Source of the DNA: Cetobacterium somerae
GTDB taxonomy: Bacteria > Fusobacteriota > Fusobacteriia > Fusobacteriales > Fusobacteriaceae
Assembly: GCF_022430525.1 (NCBI RefSeq)
Contig: NZ_CP092522.1
Span: 62,001-126,000, forward strand
Reading direction: 5' to 3'
Length of the DNA stretch: 64,000 bases
Below, piece by piece: positions 42,511-61,979 of this stretch. The translations under genes and the position numbers were made by a program. Under the pieces are notes generated by a model. That model saw only the letters and a program-made list of their open reading frames with translations, made no database searches and was not told the DNA's origin. Numbering within the stretch: the stretch's first letter is position 1; each line of letters starts with the position of its first letter.

Positions 42511-43419
42511 ATGTTAGAGGGACTACAATTAATTTTAAATACTTTATCAACAGGAGTCGTTGTATTAAATAATAAGGCTGAAGTTAAATTTTTAAATAAG
42601 TATATGATGAGTATAATGAAAAAAAAGCATTTAAAAAATCAACAATTAGGTGAACTTTTTGGAAATTTATTTACTTGTATTCATACAGAAGACAGTAATC
42701 AAAGATGTGGGGAAACCGAAAACTGTCCCGAATGTCCATTAAGAAAATCTTTAGGAGAAGTCTCTAAAGCTTCTCAAATTGTTGTTTTTGAAAAGGAATT
42801 CTACTTATCAGAAGAGCAACAAAAATTAAAAAAATTTTTTGGAATTAGTGTGAAACCTGTAATTGATTCAGACGAAGGTGAGGTATTAATTGAAGTATTT
42901 CCAATAAAGCATGATAAAGTTAGTGAATTTTATTTATATTATCAAAATATAGATGAAGTAAATAAAAAAGTATACAGAGATGTTTTAACAGGTTTATATA
43001 ATAGAAATTTTTATGAAGAAAAAATTTCTAAAATTTATAATAATATGGAACATCTTAGTGTAATTTTACTAGATATAGATAATTTCAAAAGTTTAAATGA
43101 TACAAAAGGTCATATTGAAGGTGATAAAATACTAAAAGCTCTTTCTAAAATAATAAAAGAGACTATTAATTCCGAAAGTTATGCAATAAGAATGGGTGGA
43201 GATGAGTTTTTAATTTTAGTAAAAAAAACAAAAGAAGAAGCATTAAATTTAGCTAAAATAATTTTATCAGAATTTGAGGCTTTTAATAAAAGTATAAGTA
43301 TAGGAGTTGCTGAAAAAAAGATAGAACTAAAAACAATAAATGATTTATATAAAAAAGCAGATATGGCTCTATATACAGCTAAAAAAAATGGTAAAGGAAC
43401 AATAGTGACAAATTATTAA
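42511..43419 (+). CDS. Diguanylate cyclase with Cys-rich PAS-like domain
   Basis: 302 residues, no membrane span. Residues 1-140 form a PAS-like sensor with four cysteines: Cys56, then CGETENCPEC (Cys66, 72, 75), a possible metal or redox site. GGDEF domain about 155-302: VLLDIDNFKSLNDTKGH and the active-site RMGGDEF at 227-233. The inhibitory RxxD site expected about five residues upstream is absent (NSES), so product inhibition of the classical type is unlikely. It makes cyclic di-GMP. AGGGGGA precedes the ATG. No EAL domain in the window; a c-di-GMP riboswitch lies at 60.9 kb. Confidence 0.92.
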   Translation: MLEGLQLILNTLSTGVVVLNNKAEVKFLNKYMMSIMKKKHLKNQQLGELFGNLFTCIHTEDSNQRCGETENCPECPLRKSLGEVSKASQIVVFEKEFYLSEEQQKLKKFFGISVKPVIDSDEGEVLIEVFPIKHDKVSEFYLYYQNIDEVNKKVYRDVLTGLYNRNFYEEKISKIYNNMEHLSVILLDIDNFKSLNDTKGHIEGDKILKALSKIIKETINSESYAIRMGGDEFLILVKKTKEEALNLAKIILSEFEAFNKSISIGVAEKKIELKTINDLYKKADMALYTAKKNGKGTIVTNY

Positions 43420-59192: not shown

Positions 59193-59232
59193 AGCTCCAT
59201 CTCAAAATCATAGAGATGGAGCTCATTTTTTA
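59193..59232. terminator. Bidirectional terminator between the P-ATPase and cbiK genes
   Basis: A perfect 11-bp stem (AGCTCCATCTC against GAGATGGAGCT) with a 9-base loop and flanking A and T runs. Confidence 0.92.
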
Positions 59233-60147
59233 TAAATCTTTACTTTTTGCGTATCCTGCTTTTTTATCTATGATATCTATACTTTTATGTTTTTCAAGAA
59301 ACTTTGCATTTCCAACAAACATATCTTGAATTTCAGGAATTTCACCAAGAGGAATAAGTTTAACCTTAACTTTAAATCCTGCCTTTTCTAAATTTTCTTT
59401 CCATTCTCCTGCGATATCATTTTTAGCATGGTCTCCCGCAACAAACATCATTGGCATCAAAACAATCTCTTTTTTCTTATCCTTTTTAAGTTGTTTTACT
59501 ACAGTTTCAAAAGTTGGATATCCTTCAACAGTTCCAACATAAATTGGTTTCTCCATATCTTTAGCCATATAATCAAACATTGCATAAGCTGATGTTGCTG
59601 AATTATATGTTCCGTGTCCTACTAAAACTACAGCTTCTTTTTTATTTAAAGGTCCTACTGTCTTCATAACAGCATTAATTGTATCTTTATAATGATGAGG
59701 ATCACTTAATAAAGCATCTCCAACTCTTAAATTATTAAAATCTTTTGTATGAAATTGAGCTTCTTTTTTTATTGATTCCATTTCTACACCATCAATTACA
59801 TTTGTTGGTTGAATAATTACATTCTTATATCCTTGTTTTTTTAGAGATGCTAAAACTTCGCTTGGACTATATTTTTTTATTCCCTCATTTGCTGCCACTC
59901 TCTTAGTAACAATTCTAGATGTATATGCTTCAAATACATCTGCTTTTCCATCAAAAGCTTTTATAGCTTTTTGGTTAATTGCATCAATAGTTTTAGCTCT
60001 AGTGTCTGAATGAGTTGTTCCAAAGTGTGTCATGACAACTGCACTTTTCCCACCAGTATAAAACTCAGCATCTTCAAAAGCTTCTTCTCCATGAGCTAAT
60101 AATAAAGCAGTAGATAAACAAAATAATGATAATAATAATTTTTTCAT
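59230..60147 (-). CDS. cbiK: Periplasmic sirohydrochlorin cobaltochelatase
   Basis: 305 residues with a signal peptide at about 1-18 (LLLAHGEE). The CbiK/chelatase fold follows from about residue 32 (VVMTHFGTTHSDTRAKTIDAI), with a metal His in LVGHGTYNSATSAY and a second in MFVAGDHAKNDIAGEW, plus Glu in GTVEGYPTFE. CbiK inserts Co2+ into sirohydrochlorin in anaerobic cobalamin synthesis. Exported CbiK proteins are known in Desulfovibrio; their role there may be cobalt or heme-related transport rather than synthesis. Controlled by the cobalamin riboswitch directly upstream. GGGAGG precedes the ATG. Confidence 0.93.
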   Translation of the reverse strand: MKKLLLSLFCLSTALLLAHGEEAFEDAEFYTGGKSAVVMTHFGTTHSDTRAKTIDAINQKAIKAFDGKADVFEAYTSRIVTKRVAANEGIKKYSPSEVLASLKKQGYKNVIIQPTNVIDGVEMESIKKEAQFHTKDFNNLRVGDALLSDPHHYKDTINAVMKTVGPLNKKEAVVLVGHGTYNSATSAYAMFDYMAKDMEKPIYVGTVEGYPTFETVVKQLKKDKKKEIVLMPMMFVAGDHAKNDIAGEWKENLEKAGFKVKVKLIPLGEIPEIQDMFVGNAKFLEKHKSIDIIDKKAGYAKSKDL

Positions 60148-60179: not shown

Positions 60180-60365
60180 AAAAAGAGTCTCCTCTTCTCC
60201 GTCCTCGCAGATTTTATAATGGCAGGTCTCCTGACTTAGATTCATCCTACTCGTATCCCTTCCCAAATAAAAATATTCAGTGGTTTCTATACTTTCGTCC
60301 TCTTTACAGTGGCGGGACCGTTTAAGTTTTTCACTTAATTCCCTTTTAATCTTTAGAACCATTAC
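60180..60365 (-). promoter_or_regulatory. Cobalamin riboswitch
   Basis: Minus-strand leader of cbiK. The B12 box AGTCAGGAGACCTGCC (about 60223-60238) is intact; upstream are ACGGTCCCGCCACTG (about 60305-60319), GAGGACGAAAG, and GGGAAGGGATACGAGTAGGATGA, in canonical order. A later pairing region (GGAGAAGAGGAG with CTCTTTTTCC, about 60178-60200) probably forms the expression platform near the ribosome site. Binding of adenosylcobalamin is expected to shut off cbiK. A 63-codon frame across it is a by-product. Confidence 0.93.
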
Positions 60366-60371
60366 AGAGGT

Positions 60372-60400
60372 ATATTATCACTAACATGTTTTTTTTTCAA
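60372..60400 (-). promoter_or_regulatory. Promoter of the cobalamin riboswitch transcript
   Basis: On the minus strand: TTGAAA (60395-60400), 17-base spacer, TAATAT (60372-60377), placing the start a few bases before the riboswitch. Confidence 0.65.
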
Positions 60401-60452: not shown

Positions 60453-60710
60453 TTATTTTTTCTTATTTTTATAAAAATAAACTATATAAATTCTTGATAA
60501 AATTGCTCCGATTAATGCAGCAAAAAATCTGTGACCACTATTTTGAGCTAAATAATAAAATCCTGCTAAAAGAAGAAAAATTCTTAATATTGAAGTCACA
60601 AAAATAAATAATGAAGGATTTTTAAATTTTTTACTTTCGTCAATACCAAAATTTAAACTATAAAAAAATAAAAAACCTAAAATAATTCCACCTATAAATG
60701 CAATAATCAT
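60453..60710 (-). CDS. AtpR/ATP-synthase-I-like small membrane protein
   Basis: 85 residues with three predicted helices (about 1-22, 33-52, 60-80). The order GGIILGFLFFYSLNFGI, then SILRIFLLLAGFYYLA, then FFAALIGAILSRIYIVY matches the AtpR subunit of N-type ATPases, including the helix-2 Arg (SILRIF) and helix-3 Arg (LSRIY) of that family. AAAGGAGGAG precedes the ATG. No ATPase subunit genes are nearby, so its role here is unclear; it might be a distant relative with another partner. Confidence 0.75.
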   Translation of the reverse strand: MIIAFIGGIILGFLFFYSLNFGIDESKKFKNPSLFIFVTSILRIFLLLAGFYYLAQNSGHRFFAALIGAILSRIYIVYFYKNKKK

Positions 60711-60824
60711 AATGCTCTCCTCCTTTTATAGCTTTATATATTTTCGCTATTATTTATCAATATTTACCATTAAAAAATATTTTTCCTTGCTTTTTTTTAT
60801 TTTTTAATATTAATAATAGAAATA

Positions 60825-60853
60825 TTGACTTTTTATTGATTTTATTATATTAT
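60825..60853 (+). promoter_or_regulatory. Promoter of the c-di-GMP riboswitch transcript
   Basis: TTGACT (60825-60830), 17-base spacer, TATTAT (60848-60853), about 18 bases before the aptamer's P1 stem. Confidence 0.62.
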
Positions 60854-60867
60854 TTTTATGTACAATA

Positions 60868-60942
60868 TAATAACTGTGGCAAAATAAGGGAAACTTTATG
60901 ACGCAAAGCTATAGGGTCTTTAAAATGACAGCCAGTTACACT
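60868..60942 (+). promoter_or_regulatory. Cyclic-di-GMP class I (GEMM-I) riboswitch
   Basis: Conserved aptamer elements in order: P1 5' arm TAACTG (60871-60876), GTGGCAAAATAAG, a GGAAAC loop region with ATAAG/CTTTAT pairing (P2), the highly conserved TGACGCAAAGCTATAGGGTC (60899-60918), P3 receptor region, TGACAGCC and P1 3' arm CAGTTA (60933-60938). The 3' arm is also the first arm of the terminator at 60932-60958, so ligand-stabilised P1 would block termination: a predicted ON switch. Confidence 0.92.
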
Positions 60943-60967
60943 TTTTTAGTGTAACTGGATTTTTTTA
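60932..60967 (+). terminator. Riboswitch-controlled terminator
   Basis: A perfect 11-bp stem (CCAGTTACACT against AGTGTAACTGG) with loop TTTTT and a T run, 18 bases before the DUF4402 start. It shares CAGTTA with the riboswitch P1 stem. Confidence 0.92.
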
Positions 60968-60984
60968 TTTTTATGGGAGGGAAT

Positions 60985-61473
60985 ATGAAAAAAATTTTAA
61001 TTTCAAATCTATTATTAATATCATCTTTAAGTTATTCATCTTTAGAAAACTCAGCTGTAGAAAGTTCAATGAATATAACTGCAACTATTATTAAACCTTT
61101 AACAGTTCAATCAAATGGGCCTTTGGACTTTGGTAATATTTTACCTACTGCAACTAGCCATGCTTATTCGAGCTTTACTGTAAAAGGAGAAGAAAATGCA
61201 AATGTAAAGATTTCTTTCGAAAACTTATCTTCTGATGGAGCTAGCTTCACTGTGCCACTTCATAATAGTAATAATAGTGATTCGTTTAATATAACTTTTA
61301 ACTGTACTGCACCAAACTCACCTGGTAATTTTTTAAACCACACAAACAACATGATTACTCTAACTAATAATGGGGAAATAGTATTAAGTATTGCTGCAAC
61401 TGCTCAACCTAGAAGAGATCAGACTCCTGGTCAATATACAGGAGAATTTACTATGAGAGCGACATACGAATAA
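60985..61473 (+). CDS. Secreted DUF4402 protein under c-di-GMP control
   Basis: 162 residues. The ATG at 60973 overlaps the ribosome site; GGGAGGG (60975-60981) serves the ATG at 60985 (MKKILISN). Signal peptide about 1-19 (SLSYSSLENS). The rest is a beta-rich domain with the DUF4402 hallmarks LTVQSNGPLDFGNILP near the start, a middle TNNGEIVLSIAATA, and a closing PGQYTGEFTMRATYE. Such proteins resemble fimbrial or surface subunits; the role is inferred. No chaperone or usher gene is nearby. The c-di-GMP riboswitch in its leader suggests expression in sessile conditions. Confidence 0.85.
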   Translation: MKKILISNLLLISSLSYSSLENSAVESSMNITATIIKPLTVQSNGPLDFGNILPTATSHAYSSFTVKGEENANVKISFENLSSDGASFTVPLHNSNNSDSFNITFNCTAPNSPGNFLNHTNNMITLTNNGEIVLSIAATAQPRRDQTPGQYTGEFTMRATYE

Positions 61474-61475
61474 AT

Positions 61476-61517
61476 AAAAAAATCCCTATACAAATTTCGT
61501 ATAAGGATTTTTTTTTA
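61476..61517. terminator. Bidirectional terminator after the DUF4402 gene
   Basis: A long stem with one bulge each side (AAAAAATCC-TATAC against GTATA-GGATTTTTT) and loop around AAATTTC, shared by the converging genes at 60985 and 61515. Confidence 0.85.
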
Positions 61518-61979
61518 TTTATTTTTTCTTATCTCATCTATAACTTCTAATAAAAACTTCTTACACTGATCATTTTTTATTGTGTAATAAACATCATGAA
61601 ATTGCGGTGATGGAAACTCTGCTAAAAGTATATTCATAACCATTCTATCTCTATAAATATCAGATCTATTTAAGCTTCTTTCTATTTTTCTTAAACTTTC
61701 ATCATCTTCTTCCAAAAGATTATCCACAATTGTATTAGCATTTTTAATTAAAATATCTAAATTTGTAAGTCTATCTCTTCTATTTCTAACCTTATTTTTT
61801 TCATAAAATGTTTTTCCTTTATTTAACTCTGTTAAAAGTCCAAATAAATTAAGAGTTGGATCTTTTTCTAAAATATTTAGTATTTTTCCATATATTATAT
61901 TGCTCTCTTTATCCTCTGGACTTTGATTTTTTAAATTTTTTATATATTTTTCTGAAATTTTAATTAATATATCGTTCAT
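61515..61979 (-). CDS. Hypothetical helical protein, 154 aa
   Basis: Unrecognised. The frame is open to 61994, but the ATG there overlaps the ribosome site GGAGG, so the ATG at 61979 (MNDILIKISEKY) is the better start. The product is cytosolic, strongly helical and charged, without cysteines except one near the C-terminus (NDQCKKFL). Segments such as LEEDDESLRKIERSLNRSDIYRDRMVMN look surface-exposed. Monocistronic. No function can be inferred. Confidence 0.72.
   Translation of the reverse strand: MNDILIKISEKYIKNLKNQSPEDKESNIIYGKILNILEKDPTLNLFGLLTELNKGKTFYEKNKVRNRRDRLTNLDILIKNANTIVDNLLEEDDESLRKIERSLNRSDIYRDRMVMNILLAEFPSPQFHDVYYTIKNDQCKKFLLEVIDEIRKNK

Follow-up and report, generated by a model that had tools for sequence, protein, structure and literature searches.

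A c-di-GMP-I riboswitch ahead of a DUF4402 gene in Cetobacterium somerae and its probable link to a divergent, dispersed chaperone-usher fimbria

The locus lies near the 3' end of the window, the whole 64,000-nucleotide stretch of Cetobacterium somerae DNA that was analysed, and consists of a promoter-like pair, a c-di-GMP-I (GEMM-I) riboswitch aptamer (60868-60943), an intrinsic terminator (60932-60958) and a gene for a DUF4402 protein (60985-61473), all on the forward strand. The proposed covariance-model search, run on the whole window, matched the aptamer to Rfam RF01051 at 55.2 bits (gathering threshold 35, E 4.7e-8) and so confirms the earlier claim of a full GEMM-I aptamer. Membership of the c-di-GMP-I class is thus supported by the sequence, and binding of c-di-GMP is predicted. 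The promoter-like pair TTGACT-17-TATTAT (60825-60853), ahead of the leader, is a consensus match only, as such pairs were equally common in shuffled sequence and this one no rarer there; one can also be read at the equivalent place in the ortholog on Cetobacterium metagenome contig L009. The open reading frame list places the start of the gene at 60973 (166 aa), which precedes the Shine-Dalgarno sequence GGGAGGG (60975-60981) and is an unlikely start; the Shine-Dalgarno sequence and the orthologs indicate that the true start is ATG 60985, giving a protein of 162 aa. Beyond the gene, a terminator-like hairpin (61476-61514) was scored on the reverse strand, where it would serve the convergent gene, and its 3' side on the forward strand is T-rich as well.

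Two further elements were seen close by. Not far upstream of the c-di-GMP switch, the reverse strand carries a cobalamin riboswitch (RF00174, 111 bits, 60204-60378) that precedes a gene for a CbiK-type cobalt chelatase (59230-60147). A lone gene for AtpR, an N-ATPase subunit, occupies 60453-60710 on the reverse strand, and no other N-ATPase genes adjoin it in the stretch read.

In alignment to RF01051 the aptamer retains the equivalents of both ligand-contacting bases, G60879 for Vc2 G20, the position tuning selectivity between c-di-GMP and cGAMP (PMC9262584), and C60932 for the ligand-pairing C (Vc2 C92, pilM C75, Cd1 C87; roles of the latter two in PMC9262584). C60932 also opens the terminator stem, in which the arms CCAGTTACACT (60932-60942) and AGTGTAACTGG (60948-60958) form 11 perfect base pairs around a 5-nt loop, TTTTT, followed by ATTTTTTT. 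The T run within the latter (60960-60966) ends 18 bases before ATG 60985, in agreement with the original prediction. Terminator-like sites are enriched around the gene (three in 60700-61600 compared with 0.2 in shuffles), and a perfect 11-bp hairpin containing G+C and followed by a T run occurs at just two other places in the 64 kb. In related switches the pairing of the stem is kept through compensatory changes from T-A to C-G and from G-C to A-T.

The 5' arm of the terminator includes the 3' strand of the aptamer together with C60932, and all window-type orthologs examined share this overlap with the ligand-pairing C. Because both structures use the same bases, including C60932, the full terminator and the ligand-bound aptamer exclude each other, and ligand should therefore raise read-through. 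In the pilM switch, which is an ON switch, pairing of C75 in the terminator abolishes binding (PMC9262584). Folding with RNAfold without ligand favours the complete terminator by 17 kcal/mol (-29.8 vs -12.8 kcal/mol), and switching must thus be kinetic, decided during transcription. Anatomy and conservation in the orthologs support both the class and the direction originally proposed, that of a transcriptional ON switch; from these we infer the ligand response and the direction in vivo.

Other readings of the switch were weighed against this one. An OFF switch, in which ligand would promote the terminator, has a precedent, since class I includes OFF as well as ON switches, Cd1 among the former (PMC9262584), but it is very unlikely here, given that aptamer and terminator share bases including the ligand-pairing C and cannot coexist, and that inspection of the leader revealed no separate antiterminator able to pair with the stem. 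It is more doubtful still, to the point of being scarcely credible, that the aptamer senses 3',3'-cGAMP instead of c-di-GMP. GEMM-I aptamers of Geobacter do so (PMC9262584), but cGAMP specificity was rejected on the G at the Vc2 G20 position, and the genome encodes 11 GGDEF regions and several HD-GYP/EAL proteins, some of them behind the same switches. A G precedes CAAA in the 56 registered Cetobacterium switches, as the search pattern itself required, and was seen independently at the G20-equivalent position in locus L082.

The original prediction had the ligand act by stabilising a peripheral P1 helix (TAACTG, 60871-60876, with CAGTTA, 60933-60938) in competition with the terminator. The pairing is real as a string match: six base pairs can form in the correct register both here and in locus L102, and the 5' and 3' strands also match in L140. 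However, the helix is lineage-specific: it is absent from the nearest ortholog (L107/L009, 79-80% identical), pairing in the P1 register across 56 Cetobacterium switches shows no excess over shuffles (41.7% vs 41.1%), and no P1 was detected in Cd1, likewise of class I (PMC9262584). Across 64 switches, AGCU and AGUU, which Rfam pairs at the 3' strand, showed no covariation. The mechanism as first proposed is thus unlikely, although P1 may add strength in this species. The conserved principle, as read from the aligned switches, is consumption by the terminator of the ligand-pairing C and the strand that follows it.

The DUF4402 protein (PF14352, 26.4 bits, cut-off 25.2) has a signal-peptide-like start and an ortholog on contig L009 with 79% identity, where aptamer, terminator and gene order are identical. 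Compared with the ortholog of about 80% identity, dN is about 0.14 and dS about 0.59, and the gene is therefore under purifying selection. NCBIfam holds no name for DUF4402, and a single-sequence AlphaFold model of the window protein was unusable (pLDDT 39.5). The C-terminus, GQYTGEFTMRATYE, carries a Gly at position -14 and a penultimate Tyr, a combination found in only this one of 55 open reading frames of the window; the Gly is present in 14 and the Tyr in 15 of 19 relatives, and FimA, FimF, FimG and FimI have the same two residues. A profile of 19 DUF4402 proteins aligned by hhalign to ten E. coli pilins over 121 columns, up to the last residue (E 3.2e-7, probability 93%), while the control comparison with chaperone profiles gave a signal-peptide match only, or nothing. 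The protein is accordingly a predicted subunit of the chaperone-usher fimbrial type.

Eight c-di-GMP-I switches were found in the genome (G000), and every DUF4402 gene (five), usher-like gene (two) and full-length chaperone gene (three) that it carries lies behind one of them. Besides the window gene, the switches precede three DUF4402 genes in a row; an operon for an HD-GYP protein, a peptide-binding protein, a 279-aa DUF4402 protein, an 871-aa usher-like protein, a MORN-repeat protein and a PapD-like chaperone (C1:613511-614248); a second operon for a chaperone, a 192-aa protein, another chaperone, an 888-aa usher-like protein and two small proteins (chaperones within C1:345582-347752); a small MarR-like regulator; a very large, repeat-rich surface protein (2199 aa or more; G000 C3:123236; L021, 5404 onward); and a GGDEF and a GGDEF-EAL protein (G000 C1:1012958 and C1:1015100; L016). 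The order HD-GYP, SBP5, DUF4402, usher under a switch is conserved in relatives. The description of the window gene as lone, free of assembly neighbours, holds within the window, where no chaperone or usher genes accompany it, but not for the genome, in which the two usher/chaperone operons stand behind switches of the same kind. Genes for chaperone-usher subunits usually, though not always, have those for chaperone and usher next to them.

The arrangement also recurs across the genus, as the suggested search for DUF4402 genes behind the same riboswitch in related genomes revealed. A total of 58 switches were found in 11 of the 12 Cetobacterium genomes, and every Cetobacterium DUF4402 gene comparable in position, a comparison outside which the usher operon of G004 fell, lies 3' of a switch. 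An apparent exception on G009 contig 43 has its switch, interrupted by an assembly gap. At that site (L140, 1800-2100) a stretch of N breaks the aptamer and is flanked on either side by aptamer-like sequence, possibly reflecting a tandem aptamer.

As switches precede the GGDEF and GGDEF-EAL genes and an HD-GYP gene comes first in the operon with the 871-aa usher-like protein, c-di-GMP would control both its own production and its own degradation. The original prediction had pointed to a diguanylate cyclase in the window lacking its inhibitory site, and the gene at 42511-43419 indeed has an intact GGDEF motif and no RxxD before it. Its distance from the switch means little because the genome has 11 GGDEF regions, of which this is one, and a special link between the two was rejected on that count. 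A MarR-like regulator of about 96 aa lies 3' of a c-di-GMP-I switch in many Cetobacterium species (L019, 4775-5062; L086, L101, L106, L113, L119, L126, L129) and is followed in L086 by a gene for a 1246-aa protein. A 137-aa frame (G000 C1:373751-374113; L166) matches the chaperone profile over its first half alone, has no detected switch and is a possible remnant.

Profile comparisons connect the remaining components to fimbrial assembly. The usher-like proteins and the ushers of E. coli aligned across the plug region (E 2.9e-5, compared with 0.33 for TonB-dependent receptors as a control), and the chaperone aligned with fimbrial chaperones (E 3.9e-6) and with CsuC (3e-4). The usher-like proteins had no match in the Pfam usher family or in NCBIfam, PDB sequence searches with the DUF4402 and usher profiles gave nothing convincing, and single sequences of E. 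coli EcpA, EcpC and EcpB gave no match. Gene context adds to these similarities, with DUF4402 genes directly beside usher-like and chaperone genes in three other genera (genomes G023, G020 and G014). In G023 a short DUF4402 gene directly 3' of the switch opens an operon that continues with HD-GYP, SBP5, DUF4402, usher, a 301-aa protein, a chaperone-like protein, DUF4402 and a chaperone. Within Cetobacterium, the usher termed usher1 is present in eight of the nine DUF4402-bearing genomes and absent from G001 and G002, both of which are without DUF4402 (G011, too incomplete, was left out of this count). The exception, G007, has a window-type DUF4402 gene and only a 31% identical usher homologue in a genome that is 93% complete. 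We posit, at about even chances, that Cetobacterium and its relatives possess a chaperone-usher pathway too divergent for Pfam's usher models, with DUF4402 proteins as its subunits and with the subunit genes scattered as cassettes that each have a c-di-GMP-I ON switch of their own.

The same ON switch could instead govern a DUF4402 protein that is no fibre subunit but acts by itself, as a beta-sandwich protein that is secreted or stays in the periplasm. The window without assembly genes, the remoteness of the pilin alignment (15% identity) and the presence of the gene in G007 without a close usher1 are all in keeping with such a protein. We nevertheless regard a solitary role as improbable in view of the DUF4402 genes that adjoin usher and chaperone genes in G023, G020 and G014, the C-terminal Gly at -14 and penultimate Tyr shared with E. 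coli pilins, and the co-regulation and co-occurrence with the usher.

On balance, the window gene probably encodes a dispersed subunit of a divergent chaperone-usher fimbria that is co-induced with its assembly machinery by c-di-GMP-I ON switches. Without ligand, the strand after the aptamer AG, CCAGUUACACU, would pair with its downstream complement to form the terminator, which would also take the ligand-pairing C60932, and transcription would stop ahead of the gene. If c-di-GMP binds while the aptamer is being transcribed, the strand would be held, the terminator prevented or delayed, and the DUF4402 gene read. The product would be exported as a pilin-like subunit of a divergent chaperone-usher pathway and, in place of neighbouring gene products, a chaperone and usher encoded elsewhere in the genome, in operons under c-di-GMP-I switches of their own (C1:605386 and/or C1:345384), would assemble it in trans, with adhesion as the presumed final role. 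A shared riboswitch, not an operon, would thus keep subunit and machinery together.

How far the terminator reaches into the aptamer differs between gene classes. In the Cetobacterium switches that have a DUF4402 gene first, the terminator starts between -3 and 0, counted from the end of AGC (-1 for the DUF4402 switch of the window), and thereby takes up the ligand-pairing C, whereas in those of the HD-GYP operon, the chaperone operon, the MarR-like regulator and the cyclase it starts at +1 or later (+2 for the HD-GYP/usher switch at C1:605386). Entry of the terminator into the AGC|CAGTT core was observed in 14 of 15 DUF4402-first switches and in none of the 31 switches of other known classes in Cetobacterium (p 6e-11, an overstated value given that orthologs are not independent, though the split holds in every known gene class). 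DUF4402-first switches of G023, which belongs to a different genus, are shallow (+4 and +7), and the deep terminator is therefore a feature of Cetobacterium. It is conceivable, if rather speculative, that depth sets different c-di-GMP thresholds, with shallow switches inducing the machinery first and deep ones the subunits later. The only shallow DUF4402-first switch of the genus, L121 (G009 contig 57), precedes a DUF4402-like gene where the window genome has a switch followed by GGDEF-EAL. In G014, from another genus, L136 and L137 have higher-scoring aptamers and no clear terminator by a simple scan, possibly reflecting a different expression platform.

The class of the switch and its mechanism are of known kinds, as represented by pilM, Bc2 and Cdi-2-4. 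A close counterpart is Geobacter metallireducens pilM, a GEMM-I transcriptional ON switch controlling pilus genes in which aptamer and terminator are mutually exclusive and the ligand-pairing C is sequestered (PMC9262584). It differs in sensing cGAMP, where G20 here predicts c-di-GMP, and in controlling pili of an unrelated type (PMC9262584), while the predicted target here is a chaperone-usher subunit encoded away from its machinery. The Bc2 RNA of Bacillus thuringiensis is likewise a c-di-GMP-I ON switch with a terminator and antiterminator before a surface adhesion gene, cap, but serves one Gram-positive cell-wall adhesin with no set of fimbrial operon and subunit cassettes (PMC4933901). 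In Clostridioides difficile, Cdi-2-4 turns on the pilin gene pilA1 via c-di-GMP read-through, although with a class II aptamer and for a type IV pilin adjoining its pil genes (PMC6366702). C. difficile Cd1 resembles the present element in being of class I without a detected P1 and in having C87 followed by a second C at its 3' end, and differs in being an OFF switch with a terminator able to coexist with the aptamer (PMC9262584). The proteins resemble FimA, FimC and FimD of E. coli type 1 fimbriae and their relatives in profile-level similarity of subunit, chaperone and usher and in the Gly at -14 and penultimate Tyr, but here the usher is beyond the reach of Pfam, the subunit genes are spread genome-wide and control is by RNA switches.

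The target system and its dispersed arrangement appear undescribed in the literature searched, which held no mention of DUF4402 and, among the titles and abstracts found, nothing on c-di-GMP switches or chaperone-usher pili of Cetobacterium or Fusobacteriota. The graded overlap of terminator and aptamer in these switches forms a natural series useful for the study of riboswitch thresholds. The analysis offers a testable role for a 'domain of unknown function' and a pointer to a c-di-GMP-controlled fimbrial system in Fusobacteriota, in which a shared RNA switch would take the role of an operon and coordinate subunit genes spread over the genome with assembly machinery encoded far from them.
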